DNA of 64,000 bases, taken from positions 62,001 through 126,000 of the forward strand of contig NZ_FNZK01000002.1 of NCBI RefSeq assembly GCF_900109225.1. Direction: 5' to 3'. The translations under genes and the position numbers were made by a program. Source of the DNA: Propionispira arboris (GTDB lineage: Bacteria; Bacillota; Negativicutes; Selenomonadales; Selenomonadaceae). The notes beneath the pieces are model-generated. The model saw only the letters and a list, made by a program, of their open reading frames with translations. It searched no databases and was not told the origin of the DNA. Shown here in pieces: positions 7,369 through 60,209 of this stretch. Position 1 is the first letter of the stretch, and the number at the start of each line of letters is the position of its first letter.

Positions 7369-7764
7369 TTGAAATTTATCTTACTGCCATTCGTTGCCTG
7401 GCTGGCTGCCGGTTTTTTGAAATTCAGTATTCATTATTTGCGTTACGGCGAGATGAAATTTAGCGAAATCATCGGCTATGGTGGTTTTCCAAGTACGCAT
7501 ACTTCTATTTTAGCCTCAGCCGTATTTTCACTGGGACTTTATCAAGGGTTTTTCACTCCCCTGTTTTCTTTTGGTCTTGCTAGTTTGATGGTTTGCATGA
7601 TTGATGCGCAGGGGCTTAGACGCCATGTGGGGCGGCAGGCTGTTACGGTTAATAAGCTGGATAAAACAGCAAACTTGCAAGAACGTATGGGGCATACCTG
7701 GTTTGAACTTAGCGGCGGATTGATTGTTGGCATGATCGTTGCTAGTTTGTTTTACCTTATATAA
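7369..7764 (+). CDS. Divergent PAP2 family membrane protein (YuiD-like)
   Basis: A 131-residue membrane protein of the divergent PAP2/acid-phosphatase family (DUF212, like B. subtilis YuiD). The family is recognised by GGFPSTHTS, by DAQGLRRHVGRQA and by the late GHTWFE block. Several hydrophobic segments indicate an integral inner-membrane protein. The start is a TTG eight bases after AAAGAGG. The family's reaction is not established; lipid phosphatase activity is only suggested by homology. It appears monocistronic after the gatB terminator. Confidence 0.85.
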   Translation: MKFILLPFVAWLAAGFLKFSIHYLRYGEMKFSEIIGYGGFPSTHTSILASAVFSLGLYQGFFTPLFSFGLASLMVCMIDAQGLRRHVGRQAVTVNKLDKTANLQERMGHTWFELSGGLIVGMIVASLFYLI

Positions 7765-7866: not shown

Positions 7867-8340
7867 ATGAAAAAAGGTTTTTTTTATCAAACAGCACTGG
7901 GAACTTTTTATATTGCCGAAGAATATGCCGCGATTACTGATATGAAATTTGTAACCGCAACGATCGAAAATGAAGATGAGATTGTCGAAACACTGCTTAT
8001 TCGTGAAGCTTTCATGCAGCTAAAAGAATATCTAAACGGTTTGCGTCAGCTATTTACATTGCCGCTTAGACCACAGGGAACTGTTTTTCAAAATGAAGTT
8101 TGGCAGATTTTAAAGACGATACCGTATGGTGAAACCCGTTCTTATGGACAAATTGCCACAGCAATCTGCAATCCGCATGCCAGTCAAGCCGTGGCAATGG
8201 CCAATAATAAAAACCCTATATTATTTTATATTCCGTCGCATCGTTTAATTGCGGCGAATGGAAGCTTGAATGGCTATACGGGTGGGGCAGCCATGAAAAA
8301 ATATTTATTAGAATTTGAGCAGCTGCATAAAAATAAATAA
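7867..8340 (+). CDS. O6-alkylguanine-DNA alkyltransferase homologue with Ser in place of the active-site Cys
   Basis: The fold is that of Ogt/MGMT: an N-terminal ribonuclease-H-like part, the helix-turn-helix with arginine finger (PYGETRSYGQIA), the Asn hinge, and the C-terminal NGSLNGYTGG block. The length of 157 residues is normal. The invariant PCHR motif reads PSHR (S124, codon TCG at 8236-8238), so the methyl-accepting cysteine is absent. Family knowledge says such a protein cannot do suicidal alkyl transfer. It may be an alkyltransferase-like (ATL) damage sensor, although classical ATLs have Trp here. A clear GGAG ribosome site precedes ATG 7867. Confidence 0.85.
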   Translation: MKKGFFYQTALGTFYIAEEYAAITDMKFVTATIENEDEIVETLLIREAFMQLKEYLNGLRQLFTLPLRPQGTVFQNEVWQILKTIPYGETRSYGQIATAICNPHASQAVAMANNKNPILFYIPSHRLIAANGSLNGYTGGAAMKKYLLEFEQLHKNK

Positions 8341-49790: not shown

Positions 49791-52520
49791 TTAACTCAAA
49801 GTGTTTTCTATTATTTGAAAAATATACCATATTTCATCATCAGAAAAAGAGATTTGATAAAATTTCTCCATTTTTTCAATGCTACTTTTAATGATTGCAA
49901 ATTCGAATGAGTATTGTTCTTCTAAATGATTTTTGTAAATACAAGTTGGTGAGGCCTCTTGTCGATGCATGCGGCTGATTGCGCAAATTAAGTGCATAAT
50001 GAGGCCAATCGTTACATCAGAATCATTGTGCATATTTAATTTTTTTTGTAATTTGTTTAAAAAATCAAAAAAAATGTTTCTGTAATGGTTAATATCCATT
50101 TCTTGAAATTCGGATTGCATGGCAGCAAAAACTTGTTCATAGGCATCACTATTAGTCTTAATTTTACTGATAGCTGCAATTATATTTTGTAAACCGTATT
50201 CATTAAATATTTCTGCGATAGAGAAAAAAGGAATATTATAAAGTTTTGGGTTAATACTGCCGACTACGGCAATAATATTTTTTTGTTTGGAAAGACTGTT
50301 GATTTTACTAGTTAGTTGATTTTTATCATTGATTGACATGGGGAGTACCTGAATGTTTTTTTCATCGAGATGAAGTTTGTCTTCAAGGAGAGTTTTTATC
50401 TTTAGGGCGCTGCCTTCACCAGTAGTACATAAAGCGATGATAATATTATCATTTTTTAATGAGAGGGTATGTGTAATACTATCTGTATATTTTGAAAACA
50501 GCAGTTTATTGGATTTGATATCTTCACAAATATCAAAAATATTTGTATCAATGACTGATTTTCGGGCACATTCAATAACTAATAATGTAGAGACCATATC
50601 TAAGGTTTGGATTTCAAAACCAGTCTCTTCACGAAGTAATTCTCCAAACATAGTTAGTGCCCCCATATCTACGAGCAGGATAATACCAGCACCCTGATGT
50701 TTTTTTATGATTAAGTTTTTAATTTCTTCATAAGCGATGGTGGGAGATTTGTCCATAGCCATGTCATATGCATACAGATTATCAACCTGTACTAAATTAG
50801 CGGCTACTTCAACCATAGAACTAGCAGTACTTCTTCCATGCGTAGCAACAACAATAATAGGGAGGGCAGAATTAAGTTCTGAGTTTGTATTATCGATAGA
50901 CAAAAACATAGTGATGAAGCCAACTTCATCAACAGGAACATGAATATTATAAATTCTTCCCAGTTCTTTTGAAAAATCTAAGGCGATTTTATATTCGACG
51001 GGGTTTTTATCAATAATTTGGCCAATATTATGATTGATAATGGGCTTGCTTTGCTTAATCCGTTCAATACTTGAATTAATATGGAGGCATAGTCCATAAA
51101 AAACTTTTGCTGAAAAAGCCCGGTGCAACTCAAGGCTGCTAGTTTTAAAAAATCTTTTAATTAAAGAGATAAGGGATTCATCAACAAGTTGTGAAAGTTC
51201 ATCTGTATTAAAGGTATCTTTAAAATTCCGGATGAATTTTTTGAAATAATTTTCGATGTCGAAAGACATAGTGAATTTTATATCGTTTTCATCAACCCCT
51301 TGTTTTTGTAAATATTGAATTCGCTTTTCAATTTGTTCATAGAAAGTATTTAATAGAAAGTCATCATGCTTAACAATAAGTGACTTGGATTTGTTAGGCG
51401 TAAAAGAAGTTTGACCATCCCCTTTAACTAAACAATCAATGATTAATGATTCTTTTTTATATAATAATAAGCCTTGTTTCACATGACTTGAAAAATCAGA
51501 CATATGAACGTCTAAAAACTTTTTTTTGCTAGATATACATTTTAAAAATGCATTAGCACAGCCAAATTGGATATCACTTTTTAATTGACCAACATTCCCC
51601 TTGCAGACATATAACAGCAAGGCTCGTAGAACATTAGCTGATACTAAGATTTCACGTCCAATGCGTCGGGATTCGGTTTTGAAAAATTCATAAATGAGAT
51701 GAAGTCGTTCTTCATGAGTTCGGTCTTTCAATGCGGGAATAAAAATATTCATTGGAATTCTGCGGGTAAAGGTTGTTAAGAGGGATTGTTCAATGTCTTC
51801 AGTGGTAGAACAAATAATAAGCAGGTCGCACGTTTTTTTATTATCAACATCGCCTAAGGGACTGTATAGACCTTTATCAATTAAATAGAAAAGCATTTCT
51901 TGCCCCTCTGGCGGTAAGCGATGAACTTCATCCAAAAATAAAATACCACCATCAGCTTTTGCTACAATTCCAGGTTTATCTCGATCGGCCCCAGTAAAAG
52001 CTCCTTTTTTACAACCAAAGAGATATGCAAGCAGGAGCTGTGGATTATTGGCATAATCGGCACAATTAAAAGCAATAAAAGGAGCCGATGAGGGGAAAAT
52101 ATTATTTTCAATAGAAAAATGATACATCATTTCGGCAAACATAGTTTTTCCAACGCCAGTAGGACCTAAAATAATTGTATGAAGACCTCGTGGTGGGTAT
52201 AGTATAGCGGCTTTTGCTCTTTGAATACATTTTTGTAGGCTTTTATTTTTTCCGATGAGCATATTAAAATTTAAAGGCTCTTCTGAAAGTGTTTCAGTGG
52301 GGAGCGATATTGTATGAGGAGGAACAGCGTATAAAACAGGACGACTAATTGATTTAATTAATTTACCACTTTTGTGAAGTGAATTGAGTAGAGCACTGAT
52401 ATTTGAACGTTTTATACCGAGTGCCGCTGCAATTTCATTCGTAGAGCAGCCGGTTTTGCCTTGCTTCTCCGCACTTTTTTCTAAATATTCGATGATTAAG
52501 ACTTCGTTTTTTCTTCCCAT
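49791..52520 (-). CDS. LevR-type sigma-54-dependent transcriptional activator with PTS regulation domains
   Basis: A 909-residue activator. In order it has an N-terminal winged helix (~1-60), a sigma-54 AAA+ domain (~85-310) and a first PRD (~430-540). An EIIA-Man-like domain follows (IIVVATHGRSTASSMVEVAA, with the phosphorylatable His), then an EIIB-like stretch (~690-790) and a second PRD (~800-905). The AAA+ domain shows Walker A GPTGVGKT, the GAFTGA loop that contacts sigma-54, and Walker B GGILFLDEVHR. ATG 52520 follows GAGGTG. It is divergent from the porin-PTS cluster, which has a sigma-54 promoter, so it almost certainly activates that cluster. Confidence 0.93.
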   Translation of the reverse strand: MGRKNEVLIIEYLEKSAEKQGKTGCSTNEIAAALGIKRSNISALLNSLHKSGKLIKSISRPVLYAVPPHTISLPTETLSEEPLNFNMLIGKNKSLQKCIQRAKAAILYPPRGLHTIILGPTGVGKTMFAEMMYHFSIENNIFPSSAPFIAFNCADYANNPQLLLAYLFGCKKGAFTGADRDKPGIVAKADGGILFLDEVHRLPPEGQEMLFYLIDKGLYSPLGDVDNKKTCDLLIICSTTEDIEQSLLTTFTRRIPMNIFIPALKDRTHEERLHLIYEFFKTESRRIGREILVSANVLRALLLYVCKGNVGQLKSDIQFGCANAFLKCISSKKKFLDVHMSDFSSHVKQGLLLYKKESLIIDCLVKGDGQTSFTPNKSKSLIVKHDDFLLNTFYEQIEKRIQYLQKQGVDENDIKFTMSFDIENYFKKFIRNFKDTFNTDELSQLVDESLISLIKRFFKTSSLELHRAFSAKVFYGLCLHINSSIERIKQSKPIINHNIGQIIDKNPVEYKIALDFSKELGRIYNIHVPVDEVGFITMFLSIDNTNSELNSALPIIVVATHGRSTASSMVEVAANLVQVDNLYAYDMAMDKSPTIAYEEIKNLIIKKHQGAGIILLVDMGALTMFGELLREETGFEIQTLDMVSTLLVIECARKSVIDTNIFDICEDIKSNKLLFSKYTDSITHTLSLKNDNIIIALCTTGEGSALKIKTLLEDKLHLDEKNIQVLPMSINDKNQLTSKINSLSKQKNIIAVVGSINPKLYNIPFFSIAEIFNEYGLQNIIAAISKIKTNSDAYEQVFAAMQSEFQEMDINHYRNIFFDFLNKLQKKLNMHNDSDVTIGLIMHLICAISRMHRQEASPTCIYKNHLEEQYSFEFAIIKSSIEKMEKFYQISFSDDEIWYIFQIIENTLS

Positions 52521-52689
52521 ATAATTTTTCACCTCATGATAGATAAGTCTTTTTCATATTAAAGGCGATATTAGCACATTTCTAATAAATAATCAATAGA
52601 TTTCAAATAATTAAACAATTCTTCAATGATAGTGAACTTTTTGCTAAACATGCTAAAAGCAGACTTAAATAAAGTATGGTATTAGATAG

Positions 52690-52760
52690 TTAGTGTATGG
52701 ATATCGTGATTAGTGTATTGCAAAAAGTATTAGTGTATTGGTAAAAGTATTAGTGTATGG
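52690..52760. promoter_or_regulatory. Four direct repeats, 20-bp period: likely enhancer site of the LevR-type activator
   Basis: TTAGTGTATGG or TTAGTGTATTG starts at 52690, 52710, 52730 and 52750, exactly 20 bases apart, so all copies face nearly the same side of the helix. The last copy ends 98 bases before the GG of the sigma-54 promoter, a normal distance for an upstream activating sequence. Confidence 0.8.
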
Positions 52761-52856
52761 ATTTTTTTTAGAACTTTATTTTGCATAGTATAAAAATATA
52801 GTAATTTAACGCAGCTAAAGTTAGAAATATCAATGCTTTTAACAGTTGTAATTAGT

Positions 52857-52873
52857 TGGCACGAAACTTGCTT
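52857..52873 (+). promoter_or_regulatory. Sigma-54 (-24/-12) promoter of the porin-PTS cluster
   Basis: TGGCACGAAACTTGCTT matches the TGGCAC-N5-TTGC consensus. The GG (52858-52859) and GC (52870-52871) dinucleotides are separated by exactly ten bases. Transcription would start near 52883, about 115 bases before the porin gene. Confidence 0.9.
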
Positions 52874-52997
52874 ATTAAAAGAGTGAAAGGGTGTGAACTA
52901 TTTATCTATGGATATTCAGGTGGAAATAAATGAATATTTAATAGAAAAAACAACTTAATAGGGAGATATTGAATATTAGAACTTTAGGAGGAGACTT

Positions 52998-54359
52998 ATG
53001 AAAAAAGGGGTAATATGTGCATTGGCAGCGATGGCTGTGATCTATGCTACAAGCAACGTTTTTGCTGCAGAAAATTTGTTTGCTGATGTTCCTAGAGATC
53101 ATTGGGCATATCAATCAATTACAAAATTAACGAAAGATGGTATCATTCAAGGTGATGGCACTAATTTTAATGGAGATAGGGTTCTTACACGGTATGAAAT
53201 GGCAGCACTTGTTGCTAATGCGATAACAAAAGAAGACAAAGCAGATGCAGCCTCTAAAGTAGAAATTGCTAAACTGGAACAAGAGTTTAGTTCTGAATTA
53301 GCTCAATTAGGTATAAAAATAGATAAGGTTGAAAAGAAAGTAAATAATATTGGTAATGTAAAGTTTAATTTCTGGGGCCGTGTCTTAATGAACACTTATA
53401 AAGATTCGGCTACTAAAAATGCCAATATGGATAGCCAGTATCGTTATAAATTAAAAATGACAAGTCAGCTGCAGGATAATGTGTGGGTGCAATCAAGTCT
53501 TGGCTATGATCAAGGCTACAATACAGGCAGTACATCTAATTCATCTAATAGTGTAGCTTTGCAGACGATGTATATAAAAGTGAAAAGTGGAAATTGGTAT
53601 TATAATTTTGGACGTCAGGGATCAAACGCATCAAGTCCAGTTGATATGCTGGCTACCGGTATGACGATGGCGGCAGGCACTAATTTTGATGGTCTATCAA
53701 CCTATTACGTTGATCCTAAAAATTCAAATAATAAATTTTTTATCGGTCAATTTAATAAAGCTGTGTATTATACGAATGCTGCGTCAAATAGTGTGAGAAA
53801 TATTACTATTTTGAATGCAAATTATGATATTTTGCCAAAGGTAAATTTAACAGCAGCCTACTTTAAAGATGGGGGCCGCCGGGGGATTGATGATAGTTCA
53901 TTGGCTGAAATTACTACAATTGGTGCGACTTATAAAATCTCACCAAAGTATACATTAGTCGGTGAATATGGTAGAAATCAAAAAGCAAAAGAAGCAGCAG
54001 CAGCAGAAGGTGTTAGATATAATGGTTCAAATGATGGTTGGGATGTTTTATTGCAGTATGGACACTCGAATATTGAGAAACCGAAAAGTTGGGATGTCAG
54101 TGTTGATTTAAGAAGAATGCAGCCTGGTTTTGAACCCTATGCAGGGACGGAATGGCTAGGAGGCGTATATTCTCCAATAAATGTTGGTGCAACCAGCAAT
54201 GTCGATAATGTGAAAGGTGTTGGCGTATATTGGGGCTATGTTCCTTATAAAAATGTTTGGACACAACTCAGCTGGTATTATTTGGCTCCGGTTGAAAAAG
54301 GACAAAATGATGGGAAATATAGACAAGGTGTACGTTTGATGGTTGATTTTAGATATTAA
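52998..54359 (+). CDS. SLH-domain outer-membrane porin (OmpM-like)
   Basis: A 453-residue exported protein. A signal peptide ends near AAFA-type cleavage at residue 23 (SNVFAAEN). An SLH domain (~25-75; FADVPRDHWAYQSITKLTKD and ALTRYEMA-like text) attaches to peptidoglycan-linked polymer. A coiled coil (~85-120) follows, then a beta-barrel ending VDFRY. This plan is specific to Negativicutes and relatives. GGAGG precedes the ATG. The sigma-54 promoter directly upstream ties this porin to the neighbouring PTS, so it probably admits the PTS sugar. Confidence 0.92.
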   Translation: MKKGVICALAAMAVIYATSNVFAAENLFADVPRDHWAYQSITKLTKDGIIQGDGTNFNGDRVLTRYEMAALVANAITKEDKADAASKVEIAKLEQEFSSELAQLGIKIDKVEKKVNNIGNVKFNFWGRVLMNTYKDSATKNANMDSQYRYKLKMTSQLQDNVWVQSSLGYDQGYNTGSTSNSSNSVALQTMYIKVKSGNWYYNFGRQGSNASSPVDMLATGMTMAAGTNFDGLSTYYVDPKNSNNKFFIGQFNKAVYYTNAASNSVRNITILNANYDILPKVNLTAAYFKDGGRRGIDDSSLAEITTIGATYKISPKYTLVGEYGRNQKAKEAAAAEGVRYNGSNDGWDVLLQYGHSNIEKPKSWDVSVDLRRMQPGFEPYAGTEWLGGVYSPINVGATSNVDNVKGVGVYWGYVPYKNVWTQLSWYYLAPVEKGQNDGKYRQGVRLMVDFRY

Positions 54360-54364
54360 AAGCA

Positions 54365-54400
54365 GGATCACCATTATAAAATGATAGTGGTGATCCTTAT
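54365..54400 (+). terminator. Partial terminator after the porin gene
   Basis: GGATCACCA and TGGTGATCC form a 9-bp stem with further weak inner pairs and only a short T-rich tail. It may reduce rather than stop read-through into the PTS genes, giving more porin than transporter. Confidence 0.6.
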
Positions 54401-54450: not shown

Positions 54451-55770
54451 ATGCAAAAAATGATGAGGAAATTGGAAGACTCTCTCAATAAGTATTTGTT
54501 ACCACTATCCGATATAGTCAATAGAAATCAAATTATTACCGCAATAAAAGAAGGTATGATTGCGACATTGCCGATCATTTTATTATCATCAACAGTGTTT
54601 ATTTTAATATTTTTTCCATATTTAAATCAATTTGCGCCAGCATTGGATGCTTTCTTAAAGCAGGTGTTTCGCCCGTTGATTCCGGTTACGCTGGGTATAA
54701 TAGCCTTGTTTGTTATTTTGAGTACGGCAAATAGTTATTCGCGTTTAAGGAAAATTGATTCGTTATTTGGTGTTTTTGTTGCTGTTGCTTCATTTATGCT
54801 TATTACGCCATTTTCAGTAAAAACTGAGGTTATGGTTGAAGGACAAAAAATTCAGAATGCCATGGTTTCTGGGGTTATTCCTACGGCGAATTTAGGAGCA
54901 ACTGGGATTATTACGGCTTTGATTATAACGATTCTCTCGATTAAAATTTATTCTTATATTTATCATAAAAATATGATTATTAAAATGCCAGAATCAGTTC
55001 CACCGGTCGTATCAAAACCGTTTGAATCGATCATCCCAATCGGACTTACCTTGTTGATTTTTTTAGGGGCGCGTTTGTTGATTGAACAAACTGATTTTGG
55101 AACATTACAGAATATGATCTACACCTTATTAACGAAACCACTGCTTGGCTTAGGTGGAAATATATGGGTGGTATTATTCTTATTTGTTATTTCTCAGATC
55201 TTATGGTTCTTCGGTATTCATGGCACTAGCGCAGTGATTGTGCCGATTTGGAAACCGGTAGCTACCGTTATGATGGTTGAAAATTTGGACGCTTTTAATG
55301 CAGGGCTTCCATTGCCGTATTTAATGACTTATGCATTTATGGCATTGATTGCTCATTGCCGCCTTTCACCGATTTTAGCATTAACTTTTTTAGGTAAGTC
55401 AAAACAGGCGAAGTCCATTGGTAAAGTATCACTTATACCCGCACTATTTAATATTCACGAACCATTTATTTACGGACTGCCGATTGTATTGAATGTGCCC
55501 CTTATGATTCCATGGATTATTGTAGAACCGTTGCAAATTGGACTGGCATATGGCTTGGCTGTATGGACCGATTGCATACCGGTTCTTCAGATGCCATTTA
55601 CTTTACCACCAATTTTGCAGGGATTATTGGCGACGAATTTTAATCTATGGTCGATTGTGATTACTCTTGCCGTTTTTGTTTTTGGCTTTATTTGCTGGTA
55701 CCCATTTATTAAAATTTTGGATAAGCAGATGCTGCTAGCAGAACAATCTAATTCAGACCGTGAGGTGTAA
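54451..55770 (+). CDS. PTS lactose/cellobiose-family IIC component
   Basis: A 439-residue inner-membrane permease with about ten hydrophobic segments. The core motif WFFGIHGTSAVIVPIWKP and the later LIPALFNIHEPFIYGLPIVL are hallmarks of the cellobiose/chitobiose/lactose IIC family. It carries the sugar inward while IIB phosphorylates it. AGAAGGCGG precedes ATG 54451. IIB and IIA follow as separate genes, and together they form one complete transporter. Confidence 0.93.
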   Translation: MQKMMRKLEDSLNKYLLPLSDIVNRNQIITAIKEGMIATLPIILLSSTVFILIFFPYLNQFAPALDAFLKQVFRPLIPVTLGIIALFVILSTANSYSRLRKIDSLFGVFVAVASFMLITPFSVKTEVMVEGQKIQNAMVSGVIPTANLGATGIITALIITILSIKIYSYIYHKNMIIKMPESVPPVVSKPFESIIPIGLTLLIFLGARLLIEQTDFGTLQNMIYTLLTKPLLGLGGNIWVVLFLFVISQILWFFGIHGTSAVIVPIWKPVATVMMVENLDAFNAGLPLPYLMTYAFMALIAHCRLSPILALTFLGKSKQAKSIGKVSLIPALFNIHEPFIYGLPIVLNVPLMIPWIIVEPLQIGLAYGLAVWTDCIPVLQMPFTLPPILQGLLATNFNLWSIVITLAVFVFGFICWYPFIKILDKQMLLAEQSNSDREV

Positions 55771-55888: not shown

Positions 55889-56203
55889 ATGAATATTTTA
55901 TTGGTTTGTGCTGCGGGAATGTCAACGAGCTTAGTGGTAGCAAAAATGAAAAAATTTTTAAAACCGGAAGAAGCTGATTGGGTTATTAGTGCTATTCCAT
56001 CGGAAGAACTTGCCCAGCAAGTAGATAAATATGATGTTGTGCTATTGGGACCACAATTAAAATTTAAAAAAGAGATATTGGAAGAAATTACTGCACCGAA
56101 GGGAATACCATTAGAAGTTATTAATATGATGGATTACGGTACAATGCGTGGTGATAAAATTTTAGAATTTGCTAAGATGCTTTATAATAACAAAAATCGT
56201 TAA
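55889..56203 (+). CDS. PTS lactose/cellobiose-family IIB component
   Basis: A 104-residue cytoplasmic phosphocarrier. The active-site loop LLVCAAGMSTSLVV places the phosphorylated cysteine at C7. The length and LGPQL motif are standard for the cellobiose/chitobiose type. GGGAGG is ten bases from the ATG. It takes phosphate from IIA and passes it to the sugar. Confidence 0.93.
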   Translation: MNILLVCAAGMSTSLVVAKMKKFLKPEEADWVISAIPSEELAQQVDKYDVVLLGPQLKFKKEILEEITAPKGIPLEVINMMDYGTMRGDKILEFAKMLYNNKNR

Positions 56204-56245: not shown

Positions 56246-56584
56246 ATGGAAGTTGGAGAAGAAGTTATTTTTAAACTTATCACGCATTCAGGGAGCGCAC
56301 GCAGTAATGTTTTTGAAGCATTTCAGTTTTGTCAAGTCGGTGATTATGAGGGTGCTAAGAAACTAATGAAAGAAGCCGATGAAAATATTCTAGAGGCACA
56401 TAAGGCGCAGACCAAGTTAATACAAAAAGAAGCTTCTGGGGAAGTGATGGAAGTGAGGTTATTGATGGTTCATGCGCAGGACCATTTGATGACGTGTATT
56501 TTAGCAAAAGAAATTATGATGAATATGATGAAAATACAAGAAGAATTAAATGAAATTAAAACGCACTTATCATTGAACAAATAA
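56246..56584 (+). CDS. PTS lactose/cellobiose-family IIA component
   Basis: A 112-residue all-helical trimeric phosphocarrier. The motif VHAQDHLM gives the phosphorylated H76, and D79 binds the central metal. The N-terminal GSARSNVFEAFQ is also conserved. GGGAGG precedes the ATG. It completes the IIC-IIB-IIA set and is followed after 13 bases by the hydrolase gene. Confidence 0.93.
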   Translation: MEVGEEVIFKLITHSGSARSNVFEAFQFCQVGDYEGAKKLMKEADENILEAHKAQTKLIQKEASGEVMEVRLLMVHAQDHLMTCILAKEIMMNMMKIQEELNEIKTHLSLNK

Positions 56585-58036: not shown

Positions 58037-58795
58037 ATGGAATATAAACAAAGATTGTTGATTCGGGCAGATGATTTAGGATATAGCGAAGGGACGAATT
58101 ATGGAATTGCTAAAACTGTAAATCAAGGAATTGTTCGTTCGGTGGGGTTGATGACGAATATGTCGGCAGCTGAACATGGCTTGAATTTATTTGACTTGGA
58201 AGCTATATGCTTAGGATTGCATACAAATATTTGTGCGGGTCGGCCCTTGTGTGATCCGGTCTTGATTCCTAGTCTGGTGGATGCGGGTGGGATGTTTAAA
58301 TCTTCCCAAGAATATCATCAATCCAATATTGATTTTGTTGTAATCAATGAAGCTGTCCTTGAAATTGAGGCACAACTGCAACGCTTTATTGTAATGGTAG
58401 GAAGATTACCGGATTATATTGAAGGTCATGCGGTAAAGAGCTGCAATTTTTTTCAGGCACTGAAATTGGTAGCTGTGAAATTTCAATTAAAATACATTCC
58501 ATTATCGTTGTCGGAAAAACCAATATTAGTTGGTGAAAAGAAAATATATGTTCATATGAATAGCATGCGGATTGATTATAATCCGTGGAAAACATTGGAA
58601 ATGATAGTTGAGCATCCACATTTTGATGGTTGTGAGTCGATGATATGCCATCCAGGGTATTTGGATGAAGATATATTGAAGTACTCATCACTTACATTTC
58701 CTAGACCGTTAGAAGTTTCAATGTTATGTGATCCTAAAATATGTAAGTTTATCGAAGCACATAGAGTAGAATTAATCACGTATAATGATATTTGA
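58037..58795 (+). CDS. ChbG/YdjC-family carbohydrate deacetylase
   Basis: A 252-residue cytoplasmic metal-dependent deacetylase. Motifs RADDLGYSEGTNYGI, GLHTNI, EGHAVK-like and CHPGYLD give the metal and catalytic residues. Family members remove an acetyl group from chitobiose-phosphate or related sugars. ATG 58037 follows GAGGTGAT; the longer frame from 57974 lacks a site. Its presence next to a chitobiose-type PTS suggests that the imported sugar carries an N-acetyl group. Confidence 0.85.
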   Translation: MEYKQRLLIRADDLGYSEGTNYGIAKTVNQGIVRSVGLMTNMSAAEHGLNLFDLEAICLGLHTNICAGRPLCDPVLIPSLVDAGGMFKSSQEYHQSNIDFVVINEAVLEIEAQLQRFIVMVGRLPDYIEGHAVKSCNFFQALKLVAVKFQLKYIPLSLSEKPILVGEKKIYVHMNSMRIDYNPWKTLEMIVEHPHFDGCESMICHPGYLDEDILKYSSLTFPRPLEVSMLCDPKICKFIEAHRVELITYNDI

Positions 58796-58859: not shown

Positions 58860-60209
58860 ATGAGGAATATATATTGGAAAGTCTTGATTTTTATTGCAGT
58901 CGTGTTGAGTTGTAATTTTTCAGCAGGATTGGCTAAGCCAGTAGAAGCAACGTATCGTAGCGTTATAGATGTAAATGATTGGGGGCCGACGATTTCTAAA
59001 GTTATTGTGGATATAGGGAGCGAAGTCGATGAAGGAGCAGTAGATAAAGAAACTTTTAAGGTTTATGTAAAGCGAAGTGTTCCTCATAAGGAATCAGCTG
59101 GAACCAGCATGGATCTCTCTCAAAATTCATCAACGATAACAGAGGAACCCAAAATTCTGGGGGATCGTGAAGGATATCGTGAAATAAAAAATGTTTATGT
59201 ATCTGATAAAAATGGACAATCTGCTAAAAAAGGACATTATATTGCGATTGAGATGCAAGTTGGACCTAAAATAACTTTAGGATTACCATTGAACTTTGAT
59301 TTGAAAGCAAAACAAAATAAATGGATTGATTGCACCTATACTATTACGCAGCAGAAACCGATAAAATCTGCGCACCGTAATGTTGAAGGCCTTATTGTAA
59401 CAAAGTTTGCAGGCAGCATAAAATCAAGTATAGATGCGTTTACATTTGATAAGGTAACGTACAATGATATAACATTGTCTTATGGAAGTTTTGAACCAAA
59501 GGATAAAGAAAAACATCCTTTGATCATTTGGCTGCATGGAATGGGTGAAGGTGGGACAGACGCCTCTATTGCAGTTGCAGGTAATAAAGCGGTTAACTTC
59601 GCTGATCCTAAGATTCAAGCTTATTTTGGTGGAGCGTATGTCTTAGTACCACAAGCAAAGACTTTTTGGATGGATGGGTTTCATGAATTTGGTGATGGAA
59701 CCTCTAAATATGAAGATTCGCTTATGGCGCTGATTAGAAATTATGTATCGCTGCATAAAGAGATTGATTCAAACCGTATATATTTAGGTGGGGATTCAAA
59801 TGGAGGGTATATGACGATGTTATTGATTCGTGATTATCCGAAAGAATTTGCTGCCGCATTTCCAACATGTGAAGCATTGAAAGACAGTCTTATCACGGAT
59901 GAAGATATTGAAAAAATGAAAACTGTTCCTATTTGGTTTACAGCGGCTAAAACAGATGAAGTGGTTCCTCCTATTGAATATGTGATTCCAACTTATCAGC
60001 GCCTTGTATCGGCTGGAGCAAATGTACAGTTTAGTTTTTTTGATAATGTTAGCGATCGTACGGGTTTATATAAAAAAGCTGATGGTACACCTTTTGAATA
60101 TAATGGACACTGGTCTTGGATTTATGTCTATAATAATGATTGCATAGTGAAGGTAAATGATAAACAAATCAGCCTTATGGAATGGCTGGCAAAACAACAA
60201 CGTTTTTAA
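58860..60209 (+). CDS. Exported alpha/beta-hydrolase esterase (CE1-like/peptidase-S9-like)
   Basis: A 449-residue exported protein. The signal segment (~7-25) contains a possible lipobox with C18 (VVLSC). An immunoglobulin-like N-terminal part (~30-170) is followed by the alpha/beta-hydrolase: HPLIIWLHGMGEGG (oxyanion side), GGDSNGGYMT (nucleophile serine), KTDEVVPP (acid) and NGHWSW (histidine). Such proteins release acyl groups from polysaccharides outside the inner membrane. It may prepare the sugar before the porin/PTS route. GAAAGGACG precedes the ATG. Confidence 0.82.
   Translation: MRNIYWKVLIFIAVVLSCNFSAGLAKPVEATYRSVIDVNDWGPTISKVIVDIGSEVDEGAVDKETFKVYVKRSVPHKESAGTSMDLSQNSSTITEEPKILGDREGYREIKNVYVSDKNGQSAKKGHYIAIEMQVGPKITLGLPLNFDLKAKQNKWIDCTYTITQQKPIKSAHRNVEGLIVTKFAGSIKSSIDAFTFDKVTYNDITLSYGSFEPKDKEKHPLIIWLHGMGEGGTDASIAVAGNKAVNFADPKIQAYFGGAYVLVPQAKTFWMDGFHEFGDGTSKYEDSLMALIRNYVSLHKEIDSNRIYLGGDSNGGYMTMLLIRDYPKEFAAAFPTCEALKDSLITDEDIEKMKTVPIWFTAAKTDEVVPPIEYVIPTYQRLVSAGANVQFSFFDNVSDRTGLYKKADGTPFEYNGHWSWIYVYNNDCIVKVNDKQISLMEWLAKQQRF

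Follow-up and report, generated by a model that had tools for sequence, protein, structure and literature searches.

Comparative evidence that a LevR/CelR-type sigma-54 regulon for a sugar phosphotransferase system probably includes an outer-membrane porin in Propionispira arboris

Does an outer-membrane porin belong to the regulon of the sugar phosphotransferase system (PTS) whose locus it heads? The question is raised by a 64,000-nucleotide stretch of Propionispira arboris (contig NZ_FNZK01000002.1, positions 62,001–126,000; hereafter, the window), which is part of a 4.26-Mb genome in 40 contigs (G000:C36:62001-126000). A LevR/CelR-type sigma-54 activator is encoded on the minus strand (49791–52532). 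Divergent from it on the plus strand lie four direct repeats TTAGTGTAT (52690–52758), a -24/-12 sigma-54 promoter TTGGCACGAAACTTGCT (52856–52872), and a gene for an OmpM-type SLH porin (52998–54359), followed by EIIC, EIIB, and EIIA genes of the lactose/cellobiose (Lac) family. A sequence-only reading had described this arrangement as an activator, four repeats with a 20-bp period, a perfect promoter, and a porin as the first gene of a PTS locus; each element is confirmed, with the details given below. The best explanation of the whole is probably that a CelR/LevR-type, sigma-54-dependent disaccharide-PTS regulon took in an outer-membrane porin, and this candidate regulatory link is well supported by comparison between genomes.

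The earlier reading had proposed a search of other Negativicutes for the levR–porin–PTS gene order, and the order was found. We surveyed 80 regions of class genomes, taken from a longer list of LevR genes, together with regions of the window's own genome; resemblance to the window activator set the rank of a region, and the upper ranks are therefore enriched in Lac-type loci. An order-level search took in 189 genomes, of which those listed were all from the window's own family and 108 were without a match. With LevR open reading frames (ORFs) required to be 600 aa or longer, those sharing their first 300 residues counted once, and L063 set aside (it overlaps L064 and L065), we obtained 94 distinct LevR genes: 26 beside a Lac-family EIIC gene and 68 others (42 Man-type, 26 Gat-type or other). 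An SLH porin lay within 8 kb of 19 of the 26 Lac-type genes versus two of the 68 beside other PTS types (Fisher p = 3e-12); by genus, the figures were eight of nine versus two of 22. Among 80 loci with relatives of the window activator, 48 hold a Lac-IIC gene. Four of the five from Negativicutes carry a porin, and a porin was found in none of the 43 Lac-IIC loci elsewhere (41 assigned to other classes, two unassigned).

Promoters were scored with a weighted sigma-54 consensus (maximum 16, GG and GC required), and a match scoring 14.5 or more in the 400 bp upstream of a gene was called a site. Porins starting <150 bp from a stretch end (e.g., L285) and ORFs <250 aa were left out, and porins that share their last 120 residues were counted once; L342 (1593 aa, no promoter, unlikely to be a porin) was listed apart from the other porins. 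A site directly precedes 11 of the 18 porins of LevR + Lac-IIC loci versus none of 41 other porins (Fisher p = 1e-7), the latter made up of 11 porins from the window's genome and 30 from class genomes picked by similarity. The background was eight sites among 804 mechanically called ORFs (at least 150 aa, no family label, the window's included). Of the other seven porins, five (L274, L275, L276, L282, and L293) occupy the second or a later position in an operon whose promoter scores at least 14.7. Direct and operon-internal cases together place sigma-54-led porin units in seven genera and seven families (f1, the window's; f8, Pelosinus; f10; f16, Massilibacillus; f17, including Propionispora; f28, Lucifera; and f31). 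These counts back the predicted unit, in which a sigma-54/LevR system would drive a porin together with PTS genes.

The repeats point in the same direction. The four copies of TTAGTGTAT start at 52690, 52710, 52730, and 52750, all on the plus strand and in exact 20-bp steps, whereas 0.44 copies are expected in the window and none of 100 shuffles gave four. The 250 bp before the promoter hold four copies of GTGTAT, a number reached in none of 1000 shuffles, and we therefore rejected a chance origin. We then required each promoter to have, within the preceding 250 bp, two or more copies of GTGTAT or ATACAC on the same strand, again with 1000 shuffles and with three Pelosinus promoters standing for eight. 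Eight of 11 porin units passed at no more than 4/1000 shuffles (window, L278, and L284, 0; L276 and L282, 1; L274, 2; L288 and L275, 4). In nine Lucifera and Clostridia loci (L113–L117, L119, and L122–L124; activator identity 42%–61%), inspection by eye showed at least one GTGTAT-type site each, along with a TTGGCAT-, TTGGCAC-, or TTGGTAT-type promoter before IIA, IIB, or IIC genes. Since such sites precede PTS genes in these relatives, the window repeats are probably upstream activating sites (UAS) of the CelR type.

The promoter TTGGCACGAAACTTGCT is the sole perfect consensus match in the 64 kb; with up to two mismatches allowed, there are five matches versus 1.34 expected. Genome-wide, TTGGCAYRNNNNTTGC has 23 matches versus one for a reversed-pattern control, and chance was rejected on these grounds as well. 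TGGCAC-N5-TTGC stands at the correct spacing, and the genome carries one full match to rpoN, as a sigma-54 promoter requires. A catabolite-responsive element at the promoter was also considered and rejected: TGWAANCGNTNWCA with one mismatch occurs twice in the window, neither time near 52500–53000.

Two side observations concern sigma-54 sites in general. A second near-perfect sigma-54-like site, TTGGCATGATCGTTGCT (one mismatch), lies at 7727–7743 of the window, ∼140 bp before a 157-aa ORF at 7867. In nine of 267 distinct sigma-54 sites (L273, L282, L283, L195, L200, L205, L214, L349, and L027, some of them related loci), GTGTA directly abuts the -24 box, as in GTGTATTGGCAT; with all four bases equally frequent, an estimate gives ∼0.3 such cases by chance. 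The arrangement looks as if an activator site could block or tune the promoter.

The activator itself has the expected composition: an HTH domain, AAA+, PRD1, EIIA-Man, an EIIB-Gat-like domain, and PRD2 (Pfam/NCBIfam). Pfam matched Sigma54_activat (E = 6.6e-38), two PRD stretches, and EIIA-man, and gave no match for the EIIB-Gat domain at 0.001. Walker A is at residue 123 and GAFTGA at residue 177, and the putative phosphorylation sites H484, H565, C702, and H847 are identical across all 15 aligned sequences, the window's included. The best NCBIfam match is DagR (E = 5.2e-157), below the model cut-off (524 vs. 1400 bits). Translation likely begins at the ATG at 52520, which is preceded by AGGTG, rather than at the listed GTG. 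The closest activators found are from Lucifera butyrica (61% identity) and from Clostridia. In the window's genome, 14 genes for LevR-type activators (L061–L074) neighbor PTS genes of Gat-like, Man-like, or Lac-like type; seven of the 14 activators match Sigma54_DBD near the N-terminal end (E of 0.001 or better), six of them over the curated cut-off. The sequence-only reading had regarded LevR systems as a speciality of single-membrane Firmicutes. That view had to be given up, because 84 of 380 class genomes, the window's own included, match the activator at E = 1e-100, and Salmonella has DgaR and GfrR, as described in parts of PMC4987338.

The porin carries an SLH domain (Pfam) with a TRYE motif as in OmpM, and it matches the Veillonella OmpM structures 8bys and 8bym. 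As a single sequence, it matches 8bys over residues 1–198. A profile of 16 such porins, the window's included, aligns full length to both structures of the Veillonella parvula OmpM, which has an SLH domain, a stalk, and a barrel. One SLH domain and a C-terminal region related to OmpM thus mark the protein as OmpM-type. An NCBIfam iron-uptake-porin model matches under its cut-off, and a predicted fold (mean pLDDT 39) was too poor to use for a coiled-coil stalk or a 16-strand barrel. The protein is one of 13 porin-like matches in its genome. Sigma-54-led porins do not form one clade in the porin tree, whose starred branches force at least three label changes, gains or losses; the window porin has a long branch and belongs to no starred group.

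Two other loci of the window's genome also join a porin to PTS genes. L054 (C26) is an EIIC–porin pair. At L071 (C22:54000-73900), a cluster of PTS, glycosidase, SLH porin, and GH4 genes lies just upstream of a Man-type LevR gene; no sigma-54 site precedes this porin, and the cluster is another PTS–porin link, perhaps under a different regulator.

Several results weigh against the view that the porin is a member of the regulon. Seven of the 26 Lac-type LevR genes have no porin within 8 kb, although some of these stretches end at contig ends. Among the 43 porin-less Lac-IIC loci is one from Halanaerobiales (L142), which are described as also having an outer membrane (PMC5007114); possession of an outer membrane is thus not sufficient for a porin at the locus. 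Two of the 18 porins in LevR + Lac-IIC loci (L066 and L291) are without a sigma-54 site, and eight of the 11 directly preceded porins come from a single genus (g55, Pelosinus), so the counts overstate independence. As for the repeats, L273 is weak, with one GTGTAT-type site (71/1000 shuffles), and neither GTGTAT nor ATACAC occurs in the 250 bp before the promoters of L279 and L293; by eye, AGTGTTT is repeated at L293 and is perhaps a variant site. The main clade of sigma-54-led porins also contains two from the window's own genome that have no sigma-54 site (L054 and L055); kinship by itself therefore does not confer the promoter. Finally, no close ortholog was found in the 380 class genomes for either the porin (best long match 37%, and up to 50% identity over the SLH end only) or EIIC (at most 34%), and the locus appears to be missing from a genome of the same genus (G048), where the top match to the activator has 44% identity and no match to the porin reached 1e-30. 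The predicted porin–PTS wiring recurs, yet the window's particular locus looks isolated.

We weighed three other ways of accounting for the locus. The porin promoter might depend on sigma-54 and yet answer to one or both of two paralogues, the CelR-like activator on contig 15 and the Man-type LevR on contig 28, in which case the porin would respond to more than one sugar. Genome-wide, pairs of AGTGTAT (gap 3–33) occur in the window, at C15:22143-22189 (the second CelR-like locus), at C28:395628-395960 (the Man-type LevR locus), and at one other place on C34. Their presence at three LevR-type loci makes cross-talk among the three activators a live rival, and the recognition-helix region of the contig 15 paralogue is similar to that of the window activator. 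We nevertheless consider control by a paralogue unlikely, as the repeats lie right beside the window activator gene, which points away from them, and keep a stricter 20-bp period than those of the loci on contigs 15 and 28.

It would be more surprising still if the porin were expressed mainly from a housekeeping promoter, with sigma-54 only modulating it and the sugar signal not setting porin levels. The best sigma-70-like hexamers (10/12, at 52496–52525 on the plus strand) lie ∼470 bp before the porin, but sigma-70-like sites are no more frequent than in shuffles (34 vs. 38.2), and the interval from the -12 element (52872) to the porin start (52998) holds none of those listed. Nor do we give much credence to the porin being mainly an outer-membrane tether whose place in the PTS unit is incidental and has nothing to do with sugar entry. 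OmpM1 is indeed a tether (PMC10628300), and the shared TRYE-bearing SLH domain fits such a role, but this would leave open why porins are enriched specifically at LevR loci with a Lac-type PTS and not at other LevR loci.

If the porin is controlled by the adjacent activator, as we favor, the activator would bind the four TTAGTGTAT sites, ∼100–165 bp upstream of the -24 element, and looping from these sites would open the promoter at 52856. A single transcription unit would then yield the OmpM-type porin, the inner-membrane Lac-family EIICBA, and sugar-processing enzymes. In CelR/LevR regulators, EIIB-dependent phosphorylation of PRD2 turns the activator off and HPr-dependent phosphorylation of EIIA-Man makes it active (parts of PMC10864463 and PMC4987338), with the relevant PRD2 histidine varying between species (PMC10864463). 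By this scheme, phosphorylated EIIB would phosphorylate PRD2 (the H847 equivalent) and switch the activator off when the sugar is absent. With the sugar present, PRD2 would be dephosphorylated and HPr-dependent phosphorylation of EIIA-Man (H565) would keep the activator active. Induction of the unit would accordingly come from the sugar of its own PTS, and preferred sugars would damp it.

A porin in such a unit has a plausible use. VpOmpM1 is reported to let monosaccharides pass but not disaccharides (in parts of PMC10628300). Given this exclusion, a dedicated pore for a disaccharide PTS would make sense. Enterobacterial PTS operons encode sugar-specific porins, among them ScrY and BglH, of which ScrY offers a parallel for a dedicated pore. 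These belong to another porin family, are not known to carry an SLH tether, and are under other regulators, which are not known to be sigma-54/PRD activators. The further proposal of the sequence-only reading, that sugar-PTS signalling would set outer-membrane permeability, is a hypothesis. It is possible, though on balance doubtful, that in diderm Firmicutes PTS phosphorylation, by way of LevR/CelR and sigma-54, selects the OmpM paralogue to be installed in the outer membrane, and that, because OmpM is both pore and tether, diet would remodel outer-membrane permeability together with anchoring. In that case, the OmpMs linked to CelR would be disaccharide-permeable, and perhaps recruited to this control more than once, as the porin tree needs at least three label changes.

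Among known systems, the nearest to the window unit is the CelR/sigma-54 cel operon of Clostridium acetobutylicum and Bacillus thuringiensis (parts of PMC10864463), which shares its activator architecture, phospho-sites, multiple UAS, -24/-12 promoter, and Lac-family EII genes. Its hosts have a single membrane, whereas the window unit starts with an SLH porin. The LevR-like activators DgaR and GfrR of Salmonella likewise control PTS operons through sigma-54 in a double-membrane host, but GfrR lacks the HPr-phosphorylated histidine (PMC4987338), and a word search found no porin in the main text of that paper. In the main text of the OmpM paper (PMC10628300), the word "operon" is absent, and the portions of it considered here describe no sugar-linked regulation.

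The sequence-only reading had presented the combination as not known to be described. That is too broad as regards porins in PTS operons, which enterobacteria have; the apparent novelty lies in the recurrence, across seven families, of a CelR/sigma-54 link to OmpM-type porins. Titles and abstract openings returned by our literature search mentioned no SLH porin under CelR/sigma-54 control, and a term search of a 2025 survey of sigma-54 regulons (PMC12316311) found neither porin nor Negativicutes. The ∼50 such regulons that Nie et al. (2016) reconstructed in diverse Firmicutes (as cited in PMC10864463) could already contain porin cases from Negativicutes. Porin choice in diderm Firmicutes seems to be little studied, with no such regulatory study in the titles and abstract openings searched. 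The pattern predicts an enhancer-dependent sugar regulon that spans both membranes in members of the seven sampled families; in the single-membrane relatives examined, the same regulon was present and a porin was not found. A regulon common to one- and two-membrane relatives can thus gain an outer-membrane step in the latter. The wiring also gives sugar-specific predictions for porin function and cheap substrate proposals for OmpM paralogues.

The remaining genes of the unit, all on the plus strand, bear on its sugar. EIIC (54451–55770), EIIB (55889–56203), and EIIA (56246–56584) were assigned to the Lac family by their Pfam matches (PF02378, PF02302, and PF02255); EIIC exceeds the cut-off of the lacE subfamily model TIGR00410 (278.9 vs. 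236), and EIIB and EIIA are below their NCBIfam cut-offs. They are followed by an apiosidase-like glycoside hydrolase (PF13204; 56598–57881), a YdjC/ChbG-like carbohydrate deacetylase (58037–58795; Pfam/NCBIfam with a query from 58046, inside the gene, and the start read from the translation), and an EstA-type esterase with an N-terminal, hydrophobic, signal-like stretch (58860–60209; Pfam and translation). These hydrolases differ from the GH1 or GH4 enzymes of many relatives, neither of which is present in this operon. Their combination suggests an acylated or N-acetylated plant-type glycoside, and the substrate would be a beta-linked, possibly acylated disaccharide. The PF13204 protein has no obvious signal peptide, and its substrate may be a phosphorylated disaccharide. 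A relative of the esterase sits in the porin operon of another genome (G282, L282).

In the gap between porin and EIIC, there is a hairpin with a perfect 14-bp stem (54364–54397, plus strand; z = -4.8) and a weak T tail. None was found after the porins of L276, L275, L282, and L279, and the element is thus not a general feature of such units. A similar hairpin lies 3' of the porin in L278 and L273, and a weaker one in L284 (z = -2.2). The window hairpin is a possible partial terminator or mRNA 3' stabilizer and may raise porin expression over that of the PTS genes.

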